From: Candidatus Binatia bacterium
GTDB taxonomy: Bacteria > Vulcanimicrobiota > Vulcanimicrobiia > Vulcanimicrobiales > Vulcanimicrobiaceae
DNA length: 64,000 bases
Assembly: GCA_035544215.1 (NCBI GenBank)
Contig: DATKHY010000007.1
Span: 620,001-684,000 of the forward strand
Direction of reading: 5' to 3'
Made by a program: the position numbers and the translations under genes. Shown one piece after another: positions 15,177 through 35,175 of this stretch; the stretch's first letter is position 1, and each line of letters starts with the position of its first letter. The notes below the pieces were generated by a model. It was not told where the DNA came from, did no database searches, and saw only the letters and a program-made list of their open reading frames with translations.

Positions 15177-16546
15177 GGATGCAGCAGCGGCGCCGGATAG
15201 ACGCCGATCAGCACGAGCGCGACGAGCAGCGGCGCGACCGCGAGCCCCTCGGCCCAGCCGAGATCGGGGCGGACCGGAACGTCGGCCACCGGCGGTCCGT
15301 TCATGATGTCCTGATACAGACGCAGCATGTACGCCGAGGCGAGCACGATCGCGACCAGCGCCACGATGACGGGCCACACGTAGCCTGCCTGATAGACGCC
15401 GATCAGGATGACGAGCTCGCCGACGAATCCCGCCAGGCCCGGAAGCCCCAGCGCCGCGAGCGCGGCGATGCACAACGCCCCGGCCAGCCGAGGATTCTTC
15501 CAGCCCAGGCCGCCGAGGCGCGCGAGCGAGCGCGTGTCCTCGCGCTCTTCGACATACCCCAATAGCAGGAAGAGCGCCGCGGAGAACAGCCCGTGCGCGA
15601 CGATATAGACGAGCGCACCTTCGAGCGCGATGCGATTCCCCGATCCGACCGCGAGCACGATCAGCCCGAGGTGCGACAGCGACGAATACGCCACGATTCG
15701 CTTCGCGTCGGTCTGCACGAGCGCGATCACGGCGCCGTAGATCAACGAGATCGCGCCGAGGATCATCAGCGGCAGCGCGTACGCGTGGACGTACTCCGGC
15801 ATCAACGCAAGCGCGATGGCGAGAAATCCATAGAGCCCGGCCTTCGACTGCACCGCGGAAACGACGGCGACCATCGGCGCCGGGAGGCCACTGTAGGTCG
15901 GCGGCATCCAGGTGTGGAGCGGCCATACCGGCGTCTTCACCAAGAACGCGAAGGCGAAGCCCGCATAGATCCAGCCTGCCCAGCCGCCCGCGAAGTGCGC
16001 GCCGGCGCGCCCGATGACGTCGGTCGAACCGTAGATCACGCCAAACGCCGCCGTCGCCAGCAGTAGCGTCAGTCCGCCGGCGAAGTTGTAGATGAAGTAG
16101 CGCCACGCCGTCGCCGGATGTTCGCCCCAGCCGATCAGCGCGAAGAAGACTGGGACGAGCATCAGGTCCCAGAACAGCGCGAAGACGAGCAGGTCGCGCG
16201 CAAAAAAGAGTCCGAGCATCGTACCCTCGAGCATCAACACGAGCGCCACGAAGTCGCGCGCGCGCGGGACGCGGGTGGCCGCGATCGCGCACGCCGTGCA
16301 GACCGCCAGCAACAACGCTAGCCAGAACGAGAGCGGCGTGGCGCCGAAGTGGAACGCCGCCGTAAACGGACGCGAGAGCCATCGGAAGCTCCACTCGCCG
16401 GTCCCCGCCGCCAGAAGCATCCCGAAGGTCGCCGCGGCAACCGCGGTTCCCGCGGCACGCGACAGCGACCGATCTTCCCGCGGCAGCAAGAACAGCAGCG
16501 CGCCGGCCGCTATCGGGAGCAAGATCGTGGCGAGAACGAGCGGCAT
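15173..16546 (-). CDS. nuoM: NADH-quinone oxidoreductase subunit M
   Basis: 457-aa proton-pumping antiporter-like subunit. Landmarks: LFWDLMLVPVFFALIGWG (conserved Glu/Lys region), FLVKTPVWPLHTWMPPTYSG, QSKAGLYGFLAIAL, and TDAKRIVAYSSLSHLGLIVL. It overlaps nuoN downstream and nuoL upstream by shared start/stop bases, showing tight translational coupling of the L-M-N block. Confidence 0.95.
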   Translation of the reverse strand: MPLVLATILLPIAAGALLFLLPREDRSLSRAAGTAVAAATFGMLLAAGTGEWSFRWLSRPFTAAFHFGATPLSFWLALLLAVCTACAIAATRVPRARDFVALVLMLEGTMLGLFFARDLLVFALFWDLMLVPVFFALIGWGEHPATAWRYFIYNFAGGLTLLLATAAFGVIYGSTDVIGRAGAHFAGGWAGWIYAGFAFAFLVKTPVWPLHTWMPPTYSGLPAPMVAVVSAVQSKAGLYGFLAIALALMPEYVHAYALPLMILGAISLIYGAVIALVQTDAKRIVAYSSLSHLGLIVLAVGSGNRIALEGALVYIVAHGLFSAALFLLLGYVEEREDTRSLARLGGLGWKNPRLAGALCIAALAALGLPGLAGFVGELVILIGVYQAGYVWPVIVALVAIVLASAYMLRLYQDIMNGPPVADVPVRPDLGWAEGLAVAPLLVALVLIGVYPAPLLHP

Positions 16547-18474
16547 CAGCGCGCCGCTCCGGCGATGGCGTAGTAAACGATAAAGCAGGCCGCGCCGAAG
16601 ACCAGAATCAGCGCGTACGTGCGCACGAGCCCGGTCTGGAACGATCGAACGAGCGCGCCGAGCCAGCGCGCCCAGAACACGACGTCGCGCACCGCTCCAT
16701 CGAACACGCGCGGGTCGAGGACGCGCCCCGCCGCGGCGCCCAGCAGCTGCGCCGGGCGAACGAAGATCAGGTTGATCGCGTCGTCAAAATAGAAGAGGTT
16801 TGTCAGTATCGCGGGCATCCGGCTCGTCTCGCGCTGCAGACGCTGCGTCGCGTCGGCCTGCGCGGCCGGGGTGGCGTAGCGTAGCCACGCAACGGCGAAG
16901 CCGGCTACGACCAGCACGAACACGATCGCTGAGGTGGCGGCTTCGGAGATCGCCGGGGCGCCCGCGGTCGCCACCGAACCGAACAGCGGCGCGAAAAATC
17001 TCGACCAGGCCGAGTTCTCGCCGCCGGCCATCAACGCGCCGCCGATTGCAACGCTCGGAACGACCAGCACGGCGACCGGCGCGTTCATGATCCACGCCGG
17101 CGCGTGCGGGTGATGCGCGTTCGGATCGGCATCGCCGCGATAATCGCCCAAAAACGCGATGAAGAGCAGACGGAACATGTAGTACGCGGTGATGCCCGCC
17201 GTGACGACCCCGACGGCGTAGAGCCACGGATGCCCGTGCTGCAGCACGCCGTAGATGATCGCGTCCTTCGAGAAGAACCCGCTGAAGCCCGGAACGCCGC
17301 AGATCGTGAGCACGCCCGTGAGCATCACCCAGAACGCGAACGGCATCCGCTTCCAGAGTCCGCCCATTTTGCGGACGTCTTGCTCGGCGCCGAGCGCGTG
17401 GATGACAATGCCCGCGCCCAAGAAGAGCTGCGCCTTGAAGAACGCGTGCGTGAAGAAGTGCGCTATGCCGCCCTCGTACGCGCCCACGCCGACGCCCATG
17501 ATCATGTAGCCGATCTGCGACATCGTGGAGTAGGCGAGGATCCGTTTGATGTCCCACTGCGCCGTGCCGAGAATCGCACCGAGCAGCGCCGTGAGCCCGC
17601 CGATAGTTCCTACGAGCATCTGCGCGCTCACGCTCCCCTGCCAGAGCGGCGCGCAGCGCGCGACGAGATAGACGCCGGCCGTGACCATCGTCGCGGCGTG
17701 GATCAGCGCCGACACCGGCGTCGGACCCTCCATCGCATCCGGCAACCAGGTGTGCAGCGGCACCTGCGCCGACTTGGCGGCGGCACCGATGAAGAGCGCC
17801 ACGCAGATCGCGAACAGCAGGGCAGGGCCGTAGGTCCCGGCGGCCGCAAACGCATCGCCGAACCCGATCGAATGCACGCTCGCGAAGATCAGGAAGATCG
17901 CGAACATCATGCCGACGTCGCCGACGACGTTCATCACGAACGCCTTGCGCGCCGCCGCGACGGCGCTCGGGCGCTCGAACCAAAAGCCGATCAAGAAATA
18001 CGACGCGAGGCCGACGAGGCCCCAACCGACGAGCAGGCCGACGAAGTTGTCCTGCAGGACGAGCGTGAGCATCGCGAACACGAAGAAACTCATATATGCG
18101 AAGAACCGCGCGAACGCGACGTCGCCGTCCATGTAGCCGATCGAATAGAAGATGATCAGAAATCCGACGCCGGTGATGATGAACGTCCAGAGCAGCGACA
18201 GCGGATCGAGCAGCAGCCCGAAATCGAACCCCGGCATCCACGCAAAGAGAGGCTGATGCGCGCCGAGTGCGCCGCCCGCGTTCCGCGTAGCTGCGCCCCA
18301 GGAGAGCAGGGCCAGGACGAACGACGCGCCGACCAGCGCCGAGACCAGCCACCCCGCGAGCGTGCGCAGCTGCGGTCCGAACGCCCAACAGATCACGGCG
18401 CCGGCCAGCGGCAGCAGCCACAGCGCGACGACGAGCGGATAGGCGCCGGTCACGCCAAGCGTATGATGCATCAT
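16546..18474 (-). CDS. nuoL: NADH-quinone oxidoreductase subunit L
   Basis: 642-aa subunit with about 16 helices and the long lateral C-terminal helix region. Landmarks: KSAQVPLHTWLPDAMEGPTP, VSALIHAATMVTAGVYL, WDIKRILAYSTMSQIGYMIM, and FFTHAFFKAQLFLGAG. The start is the ATG preceded by AGGAGAGCGGG, a strong ribosome-binding site. The frame remains open upstream but only through the repeat-bearing gap. That strong site right after a 370-base gap suggests nuoLMN translation is initiated independently. Confidence 0.95.
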   Translation of the reverse strand: MMHHTLGVTGAYPLVVALWLLPLAGAVICWAFGPQLRTLAGWLVSALVGASFVLALLSWGAATRNAGGALGAHQPLFAWMPGFDFGLLLDPLSLLWTFIITGVGFLIIFYSIGYMDGDVAFARFFAYMSFFVFAMLTLVLQDNFVGLLVGWGLVGLASYFLIGFWFERPSAVAAARKAFVMNVVGDVGMMFAIFLIFASVHSIGFGDAFAAAGTYGPALLFAICVALFIGAAAKSAQVPLHTWLPDAMEGPTPVSALIHAATMVTAGVYLVARCAPLWQGSVSAQMLVGTIGGLTALLGAILGTAQWDIKRILAYSTMSQIGYMIMGVGVGAYEGGIAHFFTHAFFKAQLFLGAGIVIHALGAEQDVRKMGGLWKRMPFAFWVMLTGVLTICGVPGFSGFFSKDAIIYGVLQHGHPWLYAVGVVTAGITAYYMFRLLFIAFLGDYRGDADPNAHHPHAPAWIMNAPVAVLVVPSVAIGGALMAGGENSAWSRFFAPLFGSVATAGAPAISEAATSAIVFVLVVAGFAVAWLRYATPAAQADATQRLQRETSRMPAILTNLFYFDDAINLIFVRPAQLLGAAAGRVLDPRVFDGAVRDVVFWARWLGALVRSFQTGLVRTYALILVFGAACFIVYYAIAGAAR

Positions 18475-18498
18475 CCCGCTCTCCTGAACGACGGGGAC

Positions 18499-18651
18499 GA
18501 TAGCAGCCAGCCTGCACGCAGTGCCTTTGCGGCCGTTTGCTCGGCGCATCCGGCGCCTCGCTGCACTCGACCTCTGCGCCGCTCCCGCCCTCCGTGGCTC
18601 CGCGGCGCATTCACACGCCGCTCAGGCAACGCGTGCAGGCTGGCCGCTATC
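18499..18651. repeat. Palindromic element A1 in the nuoK-nuoL gap
   Basis: Closed by 21-base inverted arms (18499-18519 and 18631-18651) that pair at 20 of 21 positions. Inside, TGCGCCGC (18575-18582) pairs perfectly with GCGGCGCA (18602-18609) around a 19-base loop. On the minus strand that loop contains AGCCACGGAGGGC. The same loop recurs at 25442-25460 and, with two changes, at 25644-25662, each time on a different stem that is also paired. No coding function seen. The element would be transcribed within the nuo mRNA. Confidence 0.65.
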
Positions 18652-18683
18652 ATCCCTCTCCCCTCCAACCTGCACGGGAAGTT

Positions 18684-18841
18684 GATCCGGGTTGGCGTTC
18701 CGTGAGCGAGGCGTGCGACTTTTTCGGGCCAGCCACGGATGGCTGCTTCAAAACTTTGTTTTCCCGAAAAAGCGCGCGAGCAGGAGCGGCACACGGAGGT
18801 GCCGCGACGAGCGTCCGAGCGATGGAACGCCAACCCGGATC
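18684..18841. repeat. 158-base multi-branch palindrome A2 in the nuoK-nuoL gap
   Basis: A perfect 18-bp stem closes it (GATCCGGGTTGGCGTTCC at 18684-18701 with its exact complement at 18824-18841). Inside are a perfect 10-bp stem (18719-18728 with 18763-18772), itself holding two hairpins (CAGCCA/TGGCTG at 18730-18745 and AAAAC/GTTTT at 18750-18762), and a separate perfect 7-bp hairpin GCGGCAC/GTGCCGC (18786-18805). The CAGCCACGGATGGCTG hairpin is a divergent version of the loop motif of element A1. With A1 it fills the gap of about 370 bases between nuoL and nuoK, in which I see no gene. Confidence 0.7.
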
Positions 18842-18843
18842 GG

Positions 18844-19149
18844 CTACCCATGGAGCGTCCTTATGTCGTCGACGTCCACGTACTTCTGCGGTCGGAACGT
18901 CGTGACGATGATCGCGAGACCGATGGCGGCCTCGGCGGCGGCAACGGTGATGACAAGAAACGCGAAGATCTGCCCGACGTTCTGCAGCCAAGAGCGCGCG
19001 AAGGCGATGAGCAGCAGGTTGGCAGCGTTGAACATCAGCTCGATGCTCATCAGCATGATCAGCGGATTGCGCCGGACGATCACGCCGATGACGCCGATGA
19101 AGAACATGACGGCGCCCAGCGCGACGTAATCGCCGATCGGAATCGCCAT
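18844..19149 (-). CDS. nuoK: NADH-quinone oxidoreductase subunit K
   Basis: 101-aa membrane subunit with three helices. The conserved glutamates of the proton path lie in NPLIMLMSIELMFNAANLLL and AAAEAAIGLAIIVTTFR. The start shares a base with the nuoJ stop. It is the last gene before the first structured gap of the operon. Confidence 0.95.
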   Translation of the reverse strand: MAIPIGDYVALGAVMFFIGVIGVIVRRNPLIMLMSIELMFNAANLLLIAFARSWLQNVGQIFAFLVITVAAAEAAIGLAIIVTTFRPQKYVDVDDIRTLHG

Positions 19150-19736
19150 CAGCCCTTGCCCTCGCGCAGGATCGCCTCACGCATCGCGCGATCGGCCTTG
19201 CGGTGGTCGCTTGGAGCCGGCTCGCGCATCACTTCGTCGCCCAGCGTGATGACGCCGATGACGGCAACCATCAGGATCAGTGCGGTGACCTCGAACGGCA
19301 GCAGCTGCACGGTGAACAGCGCCTTGCCGAAGTCGGCAATGCTGCCGAAGACGCCCGCGGTCCCCACGGCGCCGGCGGCGGGCGGAATCGCGCGCGGCGC
19401 GTGTGTTATGGCGTAGGCGACGAACGCAAAGGCCACCGCGACGAGGATGCCGCCCGGCACCCAGATCTTCGGCGCGCGGTTCGGTCCGGACGCAAACGGC
19501 GTAACACCGCTGTTCAGCAACGCGATGACGAAGACGAACAGCACCAAGATCGCGCCGGAGTAGACGATGATCTGGATCACGGCGAGAAATTCTGCCGAGA
19601 GCGTCAGATAGAGCACGGCCAGCGCCGCGAAGTTGAGCAGCAGGGCGACGACGCTATAGACGGGCTTGCTCGCGGAGATCGTCCAGACGGCGCTCGCGAC
19701 GACGATCGCCGCCAACACCCAAAACGCCGCGATCAT
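19149..19736 (-). CDS. nuoJ: NADH-quinone oxidoreductase subunit J
   Basis: 195-aa membrane subunit with five helices. Typical stretches: SASKPVYSVVALLLNFAALA, LYLTLSAEFLAVIQIIVYSG and ILVLFVFVIALLN, the pi-bulge helix region near the proton channel. A charged cytoplasmic tail follows. It overlaps nuoI by four bases. Confidence 0.94.
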   Translation of the reverse strand: MIAAFWVLAAIVVASAVWTISASKPVYSVVALLLNFAALAVLYLTLSAEFLAVIQIIVYSGAILVLFVFVIALLNSGVTPFASGPNRAPKIWVPGGILVAVAFAFVAYAITHAPRAIPPAAGAVGTAGVFGSIADFGKALFTVQLLPFEVTALILMVAVIGVITLGDEVMREPAPSDHRKADRAMREAILREGKG

Positions 19737-20356
19737 TTCTCCGGCGGCTCACGCAGCAGCGTGAGCCCCTTGCGCTGCGTCTTCAGGATCTCGCCGCGCC
19801 ATGTCGCGTCGTAGCCGCGCTCGACGTCGGTCGTCGCCTTGATCTCGGCGACGCGTCCCAAATCGCCGGGGATGCCGCCTGGACGCTCGTCCGGCGAAGG
19901 GCCGGTTCCGGCGTCCGGCGGCACGAGAAGCCGGTCCTTCGCGTAGATGAACGAGCCGCGGCGATAGTCGGCCATCTCGAAACGCGGGGTCAACACGATC
20001 GCGTCGGTCGGACACGCTTCTTCGCACATCCCACAAAAGATGCACCGCAGCTCGTCGATCTCATAGCGGGCCGCATAGCGCTCGCCGGGAGAGCGGCGAT
20101 CGTCCGGAGCGTTCTCCGCGCCGATGACCGTGATGGCGTTGGCCGGACAGACGCTCGAGCAGAGTTCGCAGCCGATGCAGCGTTCCTTGGCGTCGCCGTA
20201 CCGGCGCAGCTCGTGAAGGCCGTGGAAGCGCGGGGCGTGTTGCTTCTTGCGGGACGGATACGGAATCGTCGGCCGCTTGCGGAACATGAATCCGAAAGTG
20301 ATCGACAGCCCTTTTAGGATCGCGCCGACGTTATAGAGACGCTTTTTCGAAGCCAT
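19733..20356 (-). CDS. nuoI: NADH-quinone oxidoreductase subunit I (2 x [4Fe-4S])
   Basis: 207-aa ferredoxin-like subunit that passes electrons through clusters N6a/N6b. Both eight-iron motifs are intact: CIGCELCSSVCPANAI and CIFCGMCEEACPTDAI. An N-terminal amphipathic stretch (LKGLSITFGFMFRKRPTIPY) contacts the membrane arm. The C-terminal ~60 residues are less conserved. Confidence 0.95.
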   Translation of the reverse strand: MASKKRLYNVGAILKGLSITFGFMFRKRPTIPYPSRKKQHAPRFHGLHELRRYGDAKERCIGCELCSSVCPANAITVIGAENAPDDRRSPGERYAARYEIDELRCIFCGMCEEACPTDAIVLTPRFEMADYRRGSFIYAKDRLLVPPDAGTGPSPDERPGGIPGDLGRVAEIKATTDVERGYDATWRGEILKTQRKGLTLLREPPEK

Positions 20357-20365
20357 GCGATCCGC

Positions 20366-21343
20366 TTATCCCCGGTAGGCCACGACGACGGCGGTGACGA
20401 TGAGATTGAGCGTCGCCACCGGCAGCAGCACCTTCCAGCCGAAGGCCATCAGGCGGTCGTAGCGCAGCCGCGGCAGCGTCGCGCGCAGCCACATGTAGAA
20501 GAACATGAAGCACGCAACCTTGATGACGAACCAGACGACGCTGGGGACGGCGGTCAGGCCGAACGGCGCGTTCCATCCACCGAAGAAGAGCAGCGTCGCG
20601 ATGCACGAGACGGTCAGCATATTGACGTACTCGGCGATGAAGAACAGCCCGAAGCGCAGGCCCGAGTACTCCGTGTGAAAGCCGGCCACCAGCTCCGTCT
20701 CGGCCTCCACGAGATCGAACGGCGCGCGGTTGGTCTCGGCAACGGCCGTGATGATGTAAATGAGGAAGCCGACGAACTGCGGCAGCACGAACCACCAGCG
20801 AATCTGAGCGTGCACGATGCCGTCGAGCGAGGTCGTGCCGGCGAGGATCAACACGCCGATGAACGACAGGGCCATCGCGAGCTCGTAGCTGATCATCTGC
20901 GCCGTCGAGCGCACGCTGCCCAGCAGCGGATATTTCGATCCCGAGGCCCAGCCCCCAAGACAGATGCCATAGACCCCCAGCGACGTGATCGCCAGGATCA
21001 AGAGTATGCCGGCGTTGACGTTGCCGATCGCCCACGTCCCGCTCGACGACGAGCCGAACGGAATCACCGCGTAGACCGAAAACGCGGTAACCAACGAGAT
21101 GAACGGCGCGAGCTTATAGAGGAGGCGATCCGCGGTCTCGGGCATCAAGTCTTCCTTGAGCATCAGTTTGGCCGCGTCGGCAGCCGGCTGCAGCAGCCCC
21201 CACGGCCCGACTCGATTCGGTCCCGGCCGCAGCTGCATCCAGCCCAGCACCTTGCGCTCCACGAGCATCGCGTACGCAAACGACGTCACAACGACGAACA
21301 GCAAGAGCGCCGACTTGATCAACACAACGATCCCCGCGGGCAT
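20366..21343 (-). CDS. nuoH: NADH-quinone oxidoreductase subunit H
   Basis: 325-aa, eight-helix subunit forming the quinone chamber at the junction of the two arms. Landmarks: RKVLGWMQLRPGPNRVGPWG, the acidic loop NRAPFDLVEAETELVAGFHT, and EYSGLRFGLFFIAEY. The start codon directly follows the nuoG stop. Confidence 0.96.
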   Translation of the reverse strand: MPAGIVVLIKSALLLFVVVTSFAYAMLVERKVLGWMQLRPGPNRVGPWGLLQPAADAAKLMLKEDLMPETADRLLYKLAPFISLVTAFSVYAVIPFGSSSSGTWAIGNVNAGILLILAITSLGVYGICLGGWASGSKYPLLGSVRSTAQMISYELAMALSFIGVLILAGTTSLDGIVHAQIRWWFVLPQFVGFLIYIITAVAETNRAPFDLVEAETELVAGFHTEYSGLRFGLFFIAEYVNMLTVSCIATLLFFGGWNAPFGLTAVPSVVWFVIKVACFMFFYMWLRATLPRLRYDRLMAFGWKVLLPVATLNLIVTAVVVAYRG

Positions 21344-23338
21344 CTATGAAACCTCTTCGCGCATGCGCGCGAGCCACGGATCGTGCAGCCACGTGCCGCC
21401 GCCGGACAGAATTTTGCTCGCCCGCCTTGCATTTGGGCCTGTACTGAGCGAAGTCGAAGTTCCTGTGCTAATTGCAGTCGAAGCATCCGCAAACCGGTCG
21501 TCGCCGAGTGTGAAATCCCGCGGCGGGTTGGCCACGTTAGCGATCACCGCGCTCTCGATCTCCCCCATCGCCGGCAGCGGCGCGCCGAGCTGCTCGGCGA
21601 GCGCGCTCAGCATCTCGAGATCGGAGAGCGCGACGTCGGGAGCCTGCAGCGACGCGTTGTTCGGCAGCAGGTCGCCCGCGAGATTGGTCGTGGTCCCATA
21701 CTTTTCGAACGCGCCCTTGGCCGGCAGCACCAGCGTCGCGAGCGCGGCGGTGTCGGTCATGAAGAGCTCGCTGACGACGACGAACGGCGTGTGCTCGAGC
21801 GCACGCGCGACAGCCTCCGGATCGGCGGCGTTGCGCACCGGATTCGCGCCGAGTATCGCGAGCATCGCCATTTCGCCCGCGCGAGCGGCGTCGAACATGG
21901 CATTCGCGTCGCGCCCCGCGGGGACGGGTACGTAACCGGGACCGCTGTGCGGCAGCATGCCCATCGCCTCGGCTCCTCGAGCATTGCTCTGTTCGCCGGT
22001 GATGAACGTCGCGAGCTCCGGCACGCCGGATAGCGCCTGCACGTAGCCCTTGCCGATCGCCGGATCGACGCCGTCCCAGATCAGCGCGACGCGCGTCGCA
22101 TCTCTTACCGCCTCGCGGGCCGCGTCGGCGTTGCGCGCGTGGACGATTCGCGCGCGGTTGCGCAGCGCCGCCTTCCGCAGACGCAGCCAGAACACAGGCG
22201 CGCGTTCGGCGGGGGGCTCACCGGCGACGACGATCACTTCGGCGCCGTCCACCGCCGACAGCGAGGCGCCGCGCGCACCGGGCGTCGCCTGACGCTGCAG
22301 GCCGGCGCGCCAGTCGAGATTGGCGACGCCAAGCGCACGAAAGACGTGCTGCAGCGCGAAGGCCTCTTCGTTGGTCAGCCTCCCGCCGCCGATCGCCCCG
22401 ACGCTCGCGGGCCCCCGCGCGGCGATTGCGTGGCGTATCGCCTCGGCCCATAAGATGATTGCGTCGTCCCAGCCGATCTGGGTGAAGCTGCCAGACTTTC
22501 GGTAGAGCGGCTGCGTCAGCCGGTCCGGAGACTCATAGAAGCCGACGTTGTAACGCCCGCGATCGCACAGCCAGCCGTCGGAGATCGGATCGTCTTCCAC
22601 CAGCATAGTCCGTAGCAACGTTCCGTAACGCACGTCCGCGAACTGTTGGCACCCGACCGAGCACTGCGTGCAGGTCGTCTTCGTCCGATTCAGGTCCCAC
22701 GGCCGCGACTTGAAACGGTACGTCCGGGACGTCAGCGCGCCGACGGGGCACAGCTCCGTCACGTTTCCGGTGAAGTTATGCCGGTAGGGGCGTCCGCTCG
22801 CGGTTGCGATGATGTCGCGCGCCCCGCGCTCCTTGACGACCAGCTGTTGCTCGTCGGCGATGATGTCGTCGAAGCGAACGCAGCGCTGACAGACGATGCA
22901 CCGCTCCTCGTCGAGGACAATCGTCGGTCCGAGGTCCACGGCCTTGGGCTTAGACAGCTTCGGATCGGCGACGTCGGACGTGCCGCGAGCGTACGCCATC
23001 GCATAGTCCTGAAGATCGCACTCGCCACCCTTGTCGCAGATGGGGCAGTCCAGCGGATGATTGACGAGAAAGAGCTCGAGCACCACCGCGCGCGCCTCCT
23101 CGACGCGCTCGCCGCACGTGTGGACGACCATGCCGTCCGCCGCCGGGGTGTTGCACGCGATCTGCAGTTTGGGCATGCCCTCGATCTCAACCATACAGAT
23201 GCGGCACAGTCCGGCCGGTCCCAGCTTCGTGTGGTAGCAGTAGATCGGAATCTCTTGGTTGATGGTCTTGGCGGCCTCGACCAGCAGCGTCCCCTGGGGG
23301 ACCGTTACGGGCACGCCGTCGATCGTGAGGTTGATCAT
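21344..23338 (-). CDS. nuoG: NADH-quinone oxidoreductase subunit G
   Basis: 664-aa iron-sulfur subunit of the N-module. The N-terminal [2Fe-2S] cysteines are in IYCYHTKLGPAGLCRIC. HPLDCPICDKGGECDLQD and the following CIVCQRC ... CPVGA ligate two [4Fe-4S] clusters. CTQCSVGC with a later Cys in DGWLCDRGRY supports the additional N7-type cluster. A molybdopterin-oxidoreductase-like fold fills the rest. The C-terminal part carries an unusual 16-residue Ser/Thr-rich tandem repeat (see the repeat entry). The start is the ATG overlapping the nuoF stop; the frame continues upstream only as a shadow of nuoF. Confidence 0.95.
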   Translation of the reverse strand: MINLTIDGVPVTVPQGTLLVEAAKTINQEIPIYCYHTKLGPAGLCRICMVEIEGMPKLQIACNTPAADGMVVHTCGERVEEARAVVLELFLVNHPLDCPICDKGGECDLQDYAMAYARGTSDVADPKLSKPKAVDLGPTIVLDEERCIVCQRCVRFDDIIADEQQLVVKERGARDIIATASGRPYRHNFTGNVTELCPVGALTSRTYRFKSRPWDLNRTKTTCTQCSVGCQQFADVRYGTLLRTMLVEDDPISDGWLCDRGRYNVGFYESPDRLTQPLYRKSGSFTQIGWDDAIILWAEAIRHAIAARGPASVGAIGGGRLTNEEAFALQHVFRALGVANLDWRAGLQRQATPGARGASLSAVDGAEVIVVAGEPPAERAPVFWLRLRKAALRNRARIVHARNADAAREAVRDATRVALIWDGVDPAIGKGYVQALSGVPELATFITGEQSNARGAEAMGMLPHSGPGYVPVPAGRDANAMFDAARAGEMAMLAILGANPVRNAADPEAVARALEHTPFVVVSELFMTDTAALATLVLPAKGAFEKYGTTTNLAGDLLPNNASLQAPDVALSDLEMLSALAEQLGAPLPAMGEIESAVIANVANPPRDFTLGDDRFADASTAISTGTSTSLSTGPNARRASKILSGGGTWLHDPWLARMREEVS
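21435..21482 (-). repeat. Two 24-base tandem units inside nuoG
   Basis: On the coding strand two adjacent 24-base units both begin TTCGACT and end with AG.ACAGG plus three bases. They encode the eight-residue units STAISTGT and STSLSTGP, in frame near the NuoG C-terminus. The downstream unit contains TTCGACTTCGCTCAGTACAG, which resembles a dispersed repeat I remember from many bacterial genomes (recollection, not checked). It looks like an in-frame repeat insertion followed by duplication. Confidence 0.6.
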
Positions 23339-24591
23339 CGCGCCACCGTCTCGGCGATCCGCGATTTGAAGGCGTCGGGAAAGCGCAGCATGACGGACTT
23401 TAGGAACGGCTCGATCGAGTCGCCCAGCGCGCACAGGTTCAAACCGGTGATCGAGCGCGAGACGCGCAGCAGCATGTCGTAGTCGCCGGGGATGCCGCGA
23501 TGGTGCACGAGCCGCTCGAGGACTCGCTCCATCCAGCTGCTCCCCTCGCGGCACGGCGTGCACTGCCCGCACGACTCGTGCGCGAAGAAACGCACGAGAT
23601 TATACGCCGCGTTCACGAAGTCGGTCGTGTCGTCGAAGACGACGAACCCACCGGAGCCGAGCATCGAGCCGGCCTTCGTCATGCTCTCGTAATCATATGG
23701 CCAATCCAGATGCTCATCGAAGATGCACGCGGATGAGCCGCCGCCCGGCTGCACCGCCATGAACGTGCGCCCCGGCCTTAGGCCGCCGGCGATGTCGATG
23801 ATCTCGCGCACGGTCGTGCCGAGCGGCATCTCGTAGTTGCCCGGGTTGCGCACGTGGCCCGAGACCGAGACGATCTTGTAGCCCTTGCTGCGTTCCGTTC
23901 CGGCCGCAGAGAACCACTCCGACCCCCGCTCGAGAATCGGCACGAGATAGGCCAGCGTCTCGACGTTGTTGACGACCGTCGGCATTCCGTACAGCCCCTC
24001 GACCGCCGGGAAGGGCGGCTTGAGGCGCGGCTCCCCGCGCTTGCCCTCGAGCGAGTTGATCAGGCCGGTCTCCTCGCCGCAGATGTAGGCGCCCGCGCCG
24101 CGTTGCACCGTGATATCGAGATCGTAGTCGCTCCCGAAAATCTTCGAGCCGAACAGCCCCGCACGCCGCGCCTCGTCGAGCGCCGTGCTGAAGATCTCAT
24201 AGCCGCGCTTGAACTCGCCCCGAATATAAATGTATGCGTGATGGCACGCGATGCCGTACGCACCGAGCAGCATGCCCTCGAGCACCAAGTGCGGCGCCTC
24301 CTCGAGGAGCATGTGATCCTTGAACGTGCCGGGCTCGGCCTCGTCGCAGTTACAGATCAGGTACCGCGGGTATTTGTCGGCGGGCAGAAACGACCACTTC
24401 TTCCCGGTCGGAAACGCGGCGCCGCCGCGGCCGCGCAGGCCCGACTTCTCGGCAAGTTCGAGAACGTCGCTGGGACGCAACTCGCGCACGGCGCGCTCCC
24501 ACTGCTTGTAGCCGCCGCGCTCGCGATAGACGCCGATGTCGCGCAGATCGGCTTCGCCGATGCCGGCCGTCAAGACTTTAGTGACCGGCAC
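23335..24591 (-). CDS. nuoF: NADH-quinone oxidoreductase subunit F (FMN, NADH site)
   Basis: 418-aa NADH-binding flavoprotein. The NADH/FMN glycine-rich segments are SGLRGRGGAAFPTGKKW and GAGAYICGEETGLINSLEGK. The N3 [4Fe-4S] cluster ligands are ESCGQCTPCREG plus a later Cys in GLNLCALGD. It overlaps nuoE upstream by 14 bases and nuoG downstream by ATGA. Confidence 0.96.
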   Translation of the reverse strand: MPVTKVLTAGIGEADLRDIGVYRERGGYKQWERAVRELRPSDVLELAEKSGLRGRGGAAFPTGKKWSFLPADKYPRYLICNCDEAEPGTFKDHMLLEEAPHLVLEGMLLGAYGIACHHAYIYIRGEFKRGYEIFSTALDEARRAGLFGSKIFGSDYDLDITVQRGAGAYICGEETGLINSLEGKRGEPRLKPPFPAVEGLYGMPTVVNNVETLAYLVPILERGSEWFSAAGTERSKGYKIVSVSGHVRNPGNYEMPLGTTVREIIDIAGGLRPGRTFMAVQPGGGSSACIFDEHLDWPYDYESMTKAGSMLGSGGFVVFDDTTDFVNAAYNLVRFFAHESCGQCTPCREGSSWMERVLERLVHHRGIPGDYDMLLRVSRSITGLNLCALGDSIEPFLKSVMLRFPDAFKSRIAETVAR

Positions 24592-25345
24592 GATTCGTCC
24601 GTTCTTCGATGGTCTCCACTACCGCGCGCGAGTCAACGACCGCGCGTTCGGTCGTGCGCCCAAACATATACACGTCGCGATTGATGAGATGGTCGAGCAT
24701 GATCGTCCCGCTCGCGTCCCCGAGCCCGCCCGGGTTGTTGGGACTCTCAACCGCGACCGCCCCCGGCGACTTCCGCCCTTTGGCGATCTCCGCTTCGGCG
24801 ACGACCGCCCACGTCGGCCCCGGGGTTAGCGTCTGCGCCATCGGCTCCACGGGATACGCGCCCGCGCGCATCGCCGCGAGCATCTCGTCAATCTTCTGCG
24901 GGGTCAGGTCGTACACGAACTCGAGGTTGACCTCCATGCACGTCGCGCGGTCGCACGCGGCTAGGCACTCCACCTCTTCGTACGAGAACAGCCCGTCCGG
25001 CGTGGTCTGGAGGTGCCCGACGCCCAGCTTCTCGCGAAAGTAGGCCATGATGTCTTCGGCACCGTTGATCGCGCACGCGAGCCCGCGGCACACCTGCAGC
25101 ATGTACTTCCCCACGGGGCGGCGATACAGCAGCGTGTAAAACGACACGACGGCCTCGACCTCCGCGGGCGTGATCTCCAGCATCTCCGACGTCGCGTTCA
25201 CCGCATCGGCGCTGACGAACCCCTGATGCTCCTGGAACACGTGCACGATCGGCAGCAGGGCCGAGCGCTTGCGCTCGTACTGCGCGATCAGCGCTTCGAA
25301 CTCCGGCCGAAGCCGCTCGAGCAACGCCGCAAAAGCCTCAGCCAT
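24578..25345 (-). CDS. nuoE: NADH-quinone oxidoreductase subunit E with C-terminal extension
   Basis: The first ~160 residues are a standard NuoE: a helical start, EAVVSFYTLLYRRPVGKY, and the [2Fe-2S] ligands in VCRGLACAING and CLAACDRATC. A tail of roughly 90 residues (PMAQTLTPGPTWAVVAEAEI onwards) has no counterpart in typical 160-180-aa NuoE proteins. It ends just inside nuoF, so the tail is genuinely translated unless the true stop is masked by a sequencing error. It is the first gene after the second structured gap. Confidence 0.93.
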   Translation of the reverse strand: MAEAFAALLERLRPEFEALIAQYERKRSALLPIVHVFQEHQGFVSADAVNATSEMLEITPAEVEAVVSFYTLLYRRPVGKYMLQVCRGLACAINGAEDIMAYFREKLGVGHLQTTPDGLFSYEEVECLAACDRATCMEVNLEFVYDLTPQKIDEMLAAMRAGAYPVEPMAQTLTPGPTWAVVAEAEIAKGRKSPGAVAVESPNNPGGLGDASGTIMLDHLINRDVYMFGRTTERAVVDSRAVVETIEERTNRAGH

Positions 25346-25432
25346 TCCTCGATACCTTCGGCTTCGACGCGCGACATGACGCCTCGGAACCGCTCGTCGC
25401 TCCGCCGTCCGGGCTCCGCTCCTGCTGCCCGG

Positions 25433-25469
25433 CCGCCTCGCTCCCGCCCTCCGTGGCTCCGCTCGGCGG
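25433..25469. repeat. Structured motif B1 in the nuoD-nuoE gap
   Basis: A 19-base loop (25442-25460), identical to the loop of element A1, sits on the arms CCGCCTCGC and GCTCGGCGG. These pair at seven of nine positions, leaving a two-base internal mismatch (GA opposite GA on the minus strand). A 24-base stretch, 25439-25462, is identical to 18580-18603. It would be transcribed in the nuo mRNA just upstream of nuoE. Confidence 0.6.
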
Positions 25470-25508
25470 TCCGAGCTTCCTCGGTATCACGTCACGCGGC
25501 TCGCCGCG

Positions 25509-25572
25509 TTGGAGCAATTTATTTTTAGGATTTTGCAACCTTGCTTTCGCTAAGAAAATTGCACAATTCCAA
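25509..25572. repeat. AT-rich stem-loop in the nuoD-nuoE gap
   Basis: TTGGA and GCAATTT on the left pair with AAATTGC and TCCAA on the right, with a five-base bulge on one side. It is the AT-richest spot in a GC-rich neighbourhood. The central sequence (GCAACCTTGCTTTCGC) loosely resembles CAAAACTTTGTTTTCCC in element A2. In this gap it lies between one loop motif in each orientation, giving a roughly symmetrical arrangement. The full space of about 411 bases between nuoE and nuoD contains no gene I can support. Confidence 0.5.
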
Positions 25573-25605
25573 TCAGCGATCGATGATTCGCGAGCGAAGT
25601 CGAGC

Positions 25606-25734
25606 GGGCGACGTGCCGTTCCGGCGGCGTGTGAATCGGCCGCGGAGCCACGGACGGCGAGAGCGGCCGAGAGGCCGAGCGAAGCCGAGCGCCGGATGCG
25701 CGAGGCGAGAGGCCGCGGGAACGGCATGTCGACC
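25606..25734. repeat. Palindromic element B2 in the nuoD-nuoE gap
   Basis: Outer arms 25606-25622 and 25718-25734 pair at 15 of 17 positions. The inner stem CGGCCGC/GCGGCCG (25637-25643, 25663-25669) is perfect and encloses a 19-base loop with AGCCACGGACGGC. Relative to element A1, on the opposite strand, about 100 bases align, yet the stems differ in sequence and remain complementary. Confidence 0.65.
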
Positions 25735-25756
25735 GCGAAGACCAAGCGGCAGAGAG

Positions 25757-26977
25757 TCATCGGTCGACCTCTCCAAAGACTGGATCGAGTGAGCCGATCA
25801 TGACGACGAGGTCGGCGATGAGGTTTCCGGGCGCGATTCCCTTGAGCGCCTGGAGGTTGTAGAGGCTTGGAGGGCGCGTACGGACGCGGTACGGGCGGTT
25901 TTCGCCGTCGCTGACGATGTAGTAACCGAGTTCCCCACGCGGCGATTCGACGTTCTGATAGACGTCGCCGGGAGGCACGCGGAAGCCTTCGCTGATCAGC
26001 TTGAAGTGATGGATCAGCGCCTCCATCGAGAGCGCGATCGTCTCCTTCGGCGGCAGCGCGACCTTGGGATCGTCGATCATCACCGGCCCCGGCGTGTCCA
26101 GCCGCTTGCGCGCCTGCTGGACGATGCGGATGGATTGATCCATCTCGTCGAGGCGCACGAGGAATCGCGCATACGCGTCACCTTCGGTGCGCGACGGCAC
26201 GTCGAACTCGTAAGTGTCGTAACCCGTGTATGGATAGGCCTTGCGCACGTCATACGCGACCCCGCTGGCGCGCAGGCTGGGCCCGGTGACGCTCCACTGC
26301 AGCGCCTCCTCGGGCGTCAGGACGCCGACATCGATCGTGCGATCTTGGAAGATCGGATTGGCTTGGAGCAGCCCGCGCAGCTCGCGCATGCGGCCGGGAA
26401 ACTTCTCGATCAGAGCGTCGAGCCGGGCCAGGTAGCCGTCTGGCAGGTCGCCGTTGCAGCCGCCGACCCGCATGTAGTTCGGGTGCATGCGCGCCCCGCC
26501 GTTGGCCTCTTGGAGGTCGAGGATGTGCTCGCGCAGATCGAAGCAGTAAAAGAAGACGGAGATCGCGCCCAGGTCAATGCCGTGCGTGCCGAGCCACACG
26601 CAATGCGACGCGATGCGCGTCAGCTCCATGTCCATGACGCGAATAATCTGCGCTCGCTCCGGAATTCGATCGGTAATGCCGAGCAGCTTTTCCACGGCCA
26701 GCGAGTAGCAGAGCGCATTAGAGGAGGGCGCCAAATAGTCCATGCGCTCGATGACCGTCTGCGCCTGCGTCCAGAACAATCCCTCGGCGGTCTTCTCGAT
26801 GCCGGTGTGCAGGTAGCCGATCTCCGGGTCGGCCTTCACGACGTTCTCGCCGTCGATCTCGAGGACGATCTGCAGCACGCCATGCGTGGACGGGTGTTGC
26901 GGCCCCATCGACAGCACCATCGTATTGTCGCCCTGGCTCACGACCTCCGGCGACAGCGGCTTCGCGTAGACGCTCAC
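25757..26977 (-). CDS. nuoD: NADH-quinone oxidoreductase subunit D
   Basis: 406-aa, 49-kDa-type subunit forming the quinone-reducing site with NuoB. Landmarks: MGPQHPSTHGVLQIVLEIDG, IGYLHTGIEKTAE (quinone-site His and Tyr region), MDMELTRIASHCVWLGTHG, and the C-terminal SLDPVFGEVDR. The GTG start overlapping the nuoC stop is preferred. Longer open frame upstream is a shadow of nuoC. It is the last gene before the second gap. Confidence 0.95.
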   Translation of the reverse strand: MSVYAKPLSPEVVSQGDNTMVLSMGPQHPSTHGVLQIVLEIDGENVVKADPEIGYLHTGIEKTAEGLFWTQAQTVIERMDYLAPSSNALCYSLAVEKLLGITDRIPERAQIIRVMDMELTRIASHCVWLGTHGIDLGAISVFFYCFDLREHILDLQEANGGARMHPNYMRVGGCNGDLPDGYLARLDALIEKFPGRMRELRGLLQANPIFQDRTIDVGVLTPEEALQWSVTGPSLRASGVAYDVRKAYPYTGYDTYEFDVPSRTEGDAYARFLVRLDEMDQSIRIVQQARKRLDTPGPVMIDDPKVALPPKETIALSMEALIHHFKLISEGFRVPPGDVYQNVESPRGELGYYIVSDGENRPYRVRTRPPSLYNLQALKGIAPGNLIADLVVMIGSLDPVFGEVDR

Positions 26978-27567
26978 GACTCGCGGGCCCGTTTCACTTG
27001 CTCTTGCAGCGCCTCGAGCGTTCGCCCCGCCGGCGGTGTCCCCGCAACGACGTTGCTCTTGTTGGCAAACGCCGGTCGCGGGGCGCGCTCCCGCTCGGGC
27101 CCGCGCATCGGATAATCCTTGCGCAGCGGATGGCCTTCCCAGTCGCGCGGCATCTGGATTCGGCGCAGATCGGAATGCCCGTCGAAGACGATCCCGAACA
27201 GATCGTAGACCTCGCGCTCGGCCCAGTCGGCCGATTTCCACAGATCCATGACCGTCGGCAGGTGCTGGCTCGACTCGATGCCGCAGAGCACCCGCTTACG
27301 CGCGGGCGACCCGACGTCGGCGACGCCGGCTCGCACCGGCGCGAGCTGGAGCAAATGATATACGACGTCGAAGCGCGGCGTGCGGCGCAGGTAATCGACG
27401 GCGCCGAGATCCAGCAACACGGCGTAGCCGTCGCGCCGCAACGCTTCCAAGCGCTCGCGAAGCTGCGCCGACTCGACGCGCTCGATCGCGGCGTCGTCGA
27501 TCGGCGGACGAAGGCTCGGCGGGTCGATCGCGGCTCCGGCGATCGGCGGATTCTGCGTGCTCGGCAT
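26974..27567 (-). CDS. nuoC: NADH-quinone oxidoreductase subunit C
   Basis: 197-aa, 30-kDa-type subunit. The family signature lies in ADWAEREVYDLFGIVFDGHS and LRRIQMPRDWEGHPLRKDYP. The first ~60 residues are a variable extension rich in Pro and Ala. It is a separate gene from nuoD, not a CD fusion. Confidence 0.94.
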   Translation of the reverse strand: MPSTQNPPIAGAAIDPPSLRPPIDDAAIERVESAQLRERLEALRRDGYAVLLDLGAVDYLRRTPRFDVVYHLLQLAPVRAGVADVGSPARKRVLCGIESSQHLPTVMDLWKSADWAEREVYDLFGIVFDGHSDLRRIQMPRDWEGHPLRKDYPMRGPERERAPRPAFANKSNVVAGTPPAGRTLEALQEQVKRARES

Positions 27568-34913: not shown

Positions 34914-34975
34914 TGAAGAGGCCTAACGAGTACGGAGCCGCGCGCGCGCCGACCTCTGAAGGAGGCCGCGCGTCT

Positions 34976-35132
34976 TTCCGGCAAGTGCCCCTATCACGTT
35001 TGCGCGGGAAGCCGGTGTGAGGCCGGCACGGTCGCGCCACTGTATGCGGGGAGCCGCCCGAACGCCACTGTCTGACAACGGATGGGAAGGCGCGGGCACC
35101 GGCGATGAGCCGCGAGTCAGGATACCGTCGCA
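34976..35132 (+). ncRNA. Cobalamin (AdoCbl-type) riboswitch
   Basis: The conserved core is readable in order: GGGAAGCCGGTGTGAGGCCG, GGCACGGTCGCGCCACTGTA, a second GCCACTG followed by GATGGGAAGGC, then GATGAGCCGCGAGTCAGGAT and ACC (B12 box). It ends about 45 bases before the btuB start. When cobalamin binds, such switches usually hide the ribosome-binding site or terminate transcription, so uptake genes are expressed under B12 shortage. No T-run terminator is evident, favouring translational control. Confidence 0.92.
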
Positions 35133-35175
35133 GACGCTTTAGCATAATCCGCCTCGCGCTAAGGAAGGGATTGCG

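Follow-up and report, generated by a model that had tools for sequence, protein, structure and literature searches.

Element copies in two gaps of the nuo operon

The window, which here means the whole 64,000-nucleotide stretch of DNA that was analysed, carries a nuo operon on its minus strand. Two gaps of this operon, nuoK/nuoL (18475-18843) and nuoD/nuoE (25346-25756), hold a structured element. The covariance model placed four elements in the window, at 18509-18643 (-), 18684-18839 (+), 25367-25501 (-), and 25602-25736 (+). Each gap comprises two copies in opposite orientation; the one adjoining the downstream gene has the same sense as nuo, and the one that follows the stop codon of the upstream gene is antisense. 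The features, with the evidence for each in brackets, are as follows.

16546..18474 (-): nuoL (ORF list and start-region sequence)
18490..18660 (-): element copy 1, A type, between nuoK and nuoL, sense with nuo; core 18529-18623, P2 hairpin 18575-18609 (GGA 18591-18593), P3 hairpin 18539-18561 (GGA 18549-18551), long P1 arms outside (fold and R1 covariance model)
18673..18852 (+): element copy 2, B type, adjoining the nuoK stop codon, antisense to nuo; P2 loop 18731-18743, P3 hairpin about 18786-18805 (fold, R1 and R2 matches)
18844..19149 (-): nuoK (ORF; orthologues in 26 of 30 genomes)
24578..25345 (-): nuoE (ORF; orthologues)
25355..25512 (-): element copy 3, C type, sense with nuo, lying upstream of the nuoE start by about 20 nt; P2 loop 25446-25458, tandem GA in the P2 stem (R1, R2, fold)
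25577..25766 (+): element copy 4, A type, adjoining the nuoD stop codon, antisense to nuo; core 25622-25716, P2 25636-25670, P3 about 25684-25706 (R1 match, fold)
25757..27241 (-): nuoD, 3' end adjoining copy 4 (ORF, end sequence)

Judged from the sequence, position 18474, which follows the element and an AGGAG ribosome-binding site, appears a better nuoL start than the 18549 given by the ORF tool, and the nuoD start likely lies further inside its ORF. Copy 1 matched the covariance model at 18509-18643 with 136.7 bits, and its folding energy was -114.7 kcal/mol vs. -76.7 +/- 3.7 in shuffles (z = -10.3). Copy 4 scored 123.4 bits with R1 (25602-25736), and copy 3 scored 27.3 bits with R1 (25367-25501) and 59.4 bits with R2. 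Copy 2 is diverged, with the loop AGCCACGGATGGC at 18731-18743; it was matched by R1 at 18684-18839 and by R2 with 40.1 bits, and has orthologues in G004 and G001.

A sequence-only reading of this DNA had described three copies around a shared 19-mer. The 19-mer was recovered, as 18583-18601 is identical to 25442-25460 and 25644-25662 (opposite strand) differs at 2 bases. The stems that differ in sequence while remaining paired, the tandem GA in the second of those copies, and the outer arms that are complementary within a copy yet unlike between copies were all observed again. Those three copies are real, but the fourth, diverged copy at 18684-18839 (+) had been missed. The outer arms, which had been put at 21 and 17 bases, are longer, with P1 spanning 18490-18660 and 25577-25766.

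Core architecture, covariation, and loops

Alignment and folds describe the core as a three-way junction of about 95 nt, formed by the inner P1, the P2 hairpin, and the P3 hairpin. The P2 hairpin loop reads GCC-ACGGAn-GGC, and P3 has a GGA(U) loop with tandem G.A pairs. The core is enclosed by inverted arms of 20-50 bp, which are different at every locus. The A-type alignment (22 copies from four genomes, 137 columns) was 95.7% paired and contained 134 double-change cells, compared with 40.5 in shuffled and 22-37 in slid alignments. For 79 copies from several phyla, which were selected by the P2-loop pattern and whose alignment was fitted to the model, pairing was 89.2% and double-change cells numbered 974 vs. 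296 shuffled and 160-241 slid. A G.T (G.U) wobble occupied one P1 position in 15 of the 22 A-type copies. Additionally, AGCCACGGANGGC occurred 9 times in the 3.23-Mb genome vs. once for a reversed control pattern, and hence the recurrence of the element exceeds chance.

The loop consensus, C-A-(N)-GGA-U-G, is restricted to one strand. Of the 34 copies in set A6, 28 had GGA in the first hairpin and 24 in the last; of the 27 in set A8, 20 and 21 did, respectively, vs. only 3/158 hairpins on the antisense strand of the two sets; P3 and these sets were free of pattern selection, but were recovered with models that include the loops. Set A7 gives biased P2-loop statistics because its scan pattern included the P2 loop. 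Among 104 two-hairpin folds, which were partly pattern-selected, 82 had GGA in both hairpins. Some copies have a strict AYGGAY loop and others CAGGAUG, and in the A-type core the alignment places the GGA triplets about 42 nt apart. Folding of the sense strand is favoured over that of the antisense strand by about 10 kcal/mol. The conserved core, the loops confined to one strand, the tandem G.A pairs, and the G.T wobble all argue for a functional folded strand.

Copy number, distribution, and genomic setting

The recurrent structured element proposed by the sequence-only reading was supported by strong covariation and by the many further copies that the covariance-model search returned. The window genome itself (Candidatus Eremiobacterota, G000) holds about 12 copies according to model R2, so that the absence of further genome copies, which that reading had named as evidence against it, was not what we found. 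Across the 29 genomes searched, mostly MAGs, R1 copies were present in 21, the window genome counted. In a named-genome scan with R1 confirmation, full structures were found in Candidatus Eremiobacterota, Planctomycetota, Candidatus Eisenbacteria, the Chromatiales chromosome CP070671, Deltaproteobacteria, Syntrophorhabdaceae, and a Kuenenia-labelled MAG. By R2, the Kuenenia-labelled MAG carries at least 123 copies, a Planctomycetota MAG at least 86, and the Chromatiales genome 21. R2 copies were absent from several other genomes in the Eremiobacterota class, a useful check on the specificity of this model.

The nuo gaps, which were the setting first noticed, do not confine the element, since it also lies beside many unrelated genes. 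Copies occur between atpG and atpD, between rho and rluB, between a CDF transporter gene and a thiolase gene, and upstream of a tRNA (gene names read off translations). In most relatives nuoK and nuoL abut or overlap, and nuoD and nuoE are usually close; because these pairs are so tightly joined, the window copies are insertions. The computation shows structure, strand-specific loops, dispersal, and insertion at tight operon junctions. Orthologous nuoD-E gaps are occupied by the element in several species.

For four G005 copies compared by synteny, core and arms were wholly absent at the orthologous G000 sites, which indicates that the arms arrived or arose with the element, unless G000 lost both. 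A palindrome already present at the target is opposed as the source of the arms by these four arm-less sites and by the tightly joined nuo genes, with loss in G000 possible. When the same four copies and empty sites were compared for target-site duplication, the boundaries were blurred.

The contexts of 110 copies, based on gene calls by a simple codon model for which the window served as training data, comprised 52 co-directional, 34 convergent, and 5 divergent gaps. The 3' side of the element faces a stop codon in 75/103 cases (p = 4e-6). Sense orientation was not enriched in operons, as the co-directional gaps contained 20 sense and 32 antisense copies; together with the inverted orthologous cores described below, this indicates no conserved gene-level orientation.

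Arm turnover and core inversion

Within G005, many cores are 96-100% identical, whereas most of their arms are unrelated between copies, although still complementary within each copy. The close species G003 and G014 were compared at two orthologous loci, where identity was 91-95% in flanks, 96-99% in cores, and 57-67% in arms. The alignable arms contained 16 mirrored position changes, including a 4-nt indel, vs. 27 one-arm changes, many of them at arm margins. At three orthologous loci, the core was 94-96% identical yet inverted between collinear flanks; copy 4, whose orthologue in G005 has an inverted core, illustrates this. Five other orthologous loci kept a core of at least 96% identity in the same orientation. 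The core type differs at the L003/L135 site despite the orthologous locus. Concerted evolution of all cores was rejected, because orthologous cores of G003 and G014 agree better than paralogues (judged by eye). At the computational level, the turnover of arms, the mirrored nature of some changes, and the inversion of cores at orthologous sites are direct observations.

Because of the inverted cores, the fast arm turnover, and the mirrored changes, arm pairing is possible without RNA selection. The comparisons point to arm pairing being maintained, at least partly, by DNA-level arm-to-arm templating or recombination. We infer that template switching or recombination between arms would be the simplest reading of the mirrored changes and the core flips; an inverted core may also represent replacement by a fresh insertion at the same site. 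Kept pairing had originally been taken as the signature of a conserved structure. For the core, conservation and strand-specific loops still argue this way; for the arms, pairing alone is insufficient.

Comparison with known families

At the gathering threshold, the only Rfam match in the window was a cobalamin riboswitch and the element was unmatched, in agreement with the earlier remark that its family was not recognised. A search of ten element loci up to E = 5 matched nothing. Permissive Rfam matches of elements (e.g., plant miRNA models) were discarded as chance long-hairpin matches. The independently made RF01731 (TwoAYGGAY) model had its best G001 matches exactly on three R1 sites, each over the full length of the model, with scores of 27-32 bits (best 32.3), below the gathering threshold of 43 bits; it had no match in the window genome or in the window. 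RF01731 belongs to clan CL00106, with RsmY. The literature describes TwoAYGGAY with tandem GA, an outer stem of low conservation, and a predicted link to CsrA (PMC4333381), and reports it from the human gut, Gammaproteobacteria, and Clostridiales (PMC2864571). Like the element, it is multi-branched, has two hairpins bearing AYGGAY-like loops, and combines a tandem GA stem with a weakly conserved outer one; its descriptions, however, mention neither a dispersed repeat with arms particular to each locus nor inverted cores (PMC4333381, PMC2864571). Membership fails by the threshold, while the architecture agrees. We infer either a distant relationship of the element to the TwoAYGGAY RNA or convergence between the two.

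CsrB/RsmZ-type sRNAs, which sequester CsrA, are dedicated, single-locus RNAs. They share with the element several GGA hairpin loops at a spacing that a CsrA dimer can bridge, whereas the element is a dispersed repeat among genes and has a long closing stem. MITEs, ERIC/IRU, and similar intergenic palindromes are likewise non-autonomous, intergenic, transcribable hairpins. MITEs and ERIC/IRU have terminal inverted repeats common to their copies; in the element, by contrast, the outer arms differ even among the G005 copies with 96-100% identical cores. Small hairpin-flanked inversions, in which the loop between inverted arms flips in place, are found in plastid genomes. These involve short loops at fixed sites, whereas here a conserved multi-copy core is inverted.

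REP/BIME sequences (GTAG and CGTC families) are palindromic and multi-copy, lie in unidirectional or convergent gaps near 3' ends, often form opposite-facing pairs, and include some REP dimers inside longer palindromes (PMC3733652). The element shares the palindromic, multi-copy nature, the type of gap, the proximity to 3' ends, and the opposite-facing pairs. REPs are single hairpins of 20-40 bp (PMC3733652), whereas the element measures about 100-190 bp, branches at a three-way junction, and combines conserved GGA loops with arms specific to each copy. Many copies contain CGTC close to the junction, but not as a free REP-style tag. CGTC REPs have no known transposase (PMC3733652). For the element, Y1/RAYT was rejected as the mobiliser, as PF01797 was found in 0/18 genus genomes with positive search controls.

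Candidate function and alternative explanations

The CsrA SELEX consensus, RUACARGGAUGU, normally lies in a hairpin loop, and a CsrA dimer bridges sites 10-63 nt apart (PMC7652899). The loop consensus C-A-(N)-GGA-U-G matches it, and the two GGA hairpin-loop sites of each core fall within the bridging range (about 42 nt vs. 10-63 nt). csrA (PF02599) is present in G000, in all 21 R1-positive relatives, and in G041-G043, although these co-occurrence counts are phylogenetically dependent. Three genomes (G029, G031, and G032) have neither csrA nor the element. Against the link, G034 and G035 are csrA-positive and element-free, and G013 (79% complete) has elements while csrA was not found. Autoregulation of csrA through an adjoining element was rejected, because an element lay nearby at just 1/9 csrA loci.

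Because the loops match the consensus, the spacing fits, and csrA co-occurs, we favour a CsrA-site reading. We tentatively predict, with a confidence that stops just short of even, that this multi-copy, non-autonomous hairpin element of csrA-bearing bacteria is a dispersed bivalent module for CsrA docking or titration. Sense transcription of each copy would display two CsrA-type sites about 42 nt apart, which a single CsrA dimer could bridge, so that the element would act as a dispersed docking or titration module. In addition, the two sense copies, which directly precede nuoL and nuoE, could modulate the fate of the local mRNA. The arms would be kept paired mainly by replication or recombination copying one arm from the other, which would also flip the core. 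The orientation flips and the missing sense bias speak against each gene having a fixed cis role, but they are compatible with titration. The wider proposal, in which a mobile RNA family in several phyla (up to more than 100 copies per genome) plants predicted bivalent CsrA modules in operons while a hairpin cycle flips its core and recopies its arms, is speculative and, taken whole, somewhat unlikely.

The main rival to a CsrA site is selfish recognition of single-stranded DNA: a REP/MITE-like palindrome would be recognised, folded, by a transposase or recombinase, with loops, tandem GA, and wobble as recognition features and RNA uninvolved. Dispersal and insertion at tight gene junctions, the REP-like placement (34 convergent vs. 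5 divergent), the 3' end toward the stop codon in 75/103, the inverted cores with mirrored arm changes, and the lack of orientation preference relative to genes all fit this explanation. We nevertheless consider it possible but doubtful, as Y1/RAYT transposase is absent from 18/18 genus genomes, the loops fit a known RNA-protein motif, and cores exceed flanks in conservation at several orthologous sites, unlike dead transposon copies.

The strong bias toward gene 3' ends and convergent gaps, and the long, very stable hairpins, would also suit a bidirectional 3'-end hairpin that serves transcription termination, RNase III processing, or mRNA stabilisation after stop codons. Such a role is improbable: it leaves the conserved GGA loops, strand asymmetry, and core conservation unaccounted for, termination would be harmful in the nuo and atp operons, which hold copies and are likely co-transcribed, and no U-tract was seen after the hairpins of the window copies. 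Less probable still is a locus-specific cis-regulatory RNA for nuoL and nuoE. Sense copies do lie directly upstream of both starts and several species carry the element in the orthologous nuoD-E gap, but the nuoK-L gap is missing in most relatives, the element lies beside many unrelated genes, and the nuoD-E orthologue is inverted in G005.

The element is an undescribed, widely scattered hairpin. If the CsrA reading is true, a repeat element seeds or titrates the targets of a global post-transcriptional regulator, and TwoAYGGAY would acquire a broad range of relatives as well as a function open to testing. In long hairpins, covariation of base pairs is insufficient as proof of RNA function. 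Regardless of CsrA, the orthologous copies are a naturally preserved record of how fast arms turn over and of how cores invert in long palindromes, through which palindrome-perfecting processes become measurable.

Element copies in the window and across genomes

The nuoL ORF (16546-18549 in the window) has its listed start, 18549, within the element copy located between nuoK and nuoL (18490-18660, minus strand). Judging from the sequence of the start region, in which AGGAG precedes a candidate start at 18474, the latter is probably the true start.

The element load is extreme in two MAGs: G042 (label as given, Candidatus Kuenenia stuttgartiensis; loci L255 and L256) harbors at least 123 copies, and G043 (label as given, Planctomycetota; loci L177 and L212) at least 86.

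Two other RNA features were recorded:
34962-35146 of the window, plus strand, cobalamin riboswitch (Rfam RF00174, 79.6 bits)
543-899 of L296, a locus from a Planctomycetota MAG, tmRNA gene (142.8 bits), about 600 bases away from a sub-threshold match to TwoAYGGAY (Rfam RF01731)

Possible core replacement and nesting of repeats in hairpins

An orthologous element lies upstream of a tRNA gene in the genome of the window (L003) and in G005 (L135). The arms are related, whereas the core subtype differs; identity is 74% in the core and 86% in the flank, as if the core had been exchanged.

At L012 1421-1588 (G000:C6:100757-100924) in the window's own genome, one element copy has a second repeat (CCTTCGACTCGCTTCGCTCGCTCAGGACAGGCTC) inserted into its P2 loop, and the B-type copies L016 and L020 are flanked by related arms (GTCATCCTGAGCCTGTCGAAGGA). 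From these two arrangements, we conclude that repeats nest in hairpins.
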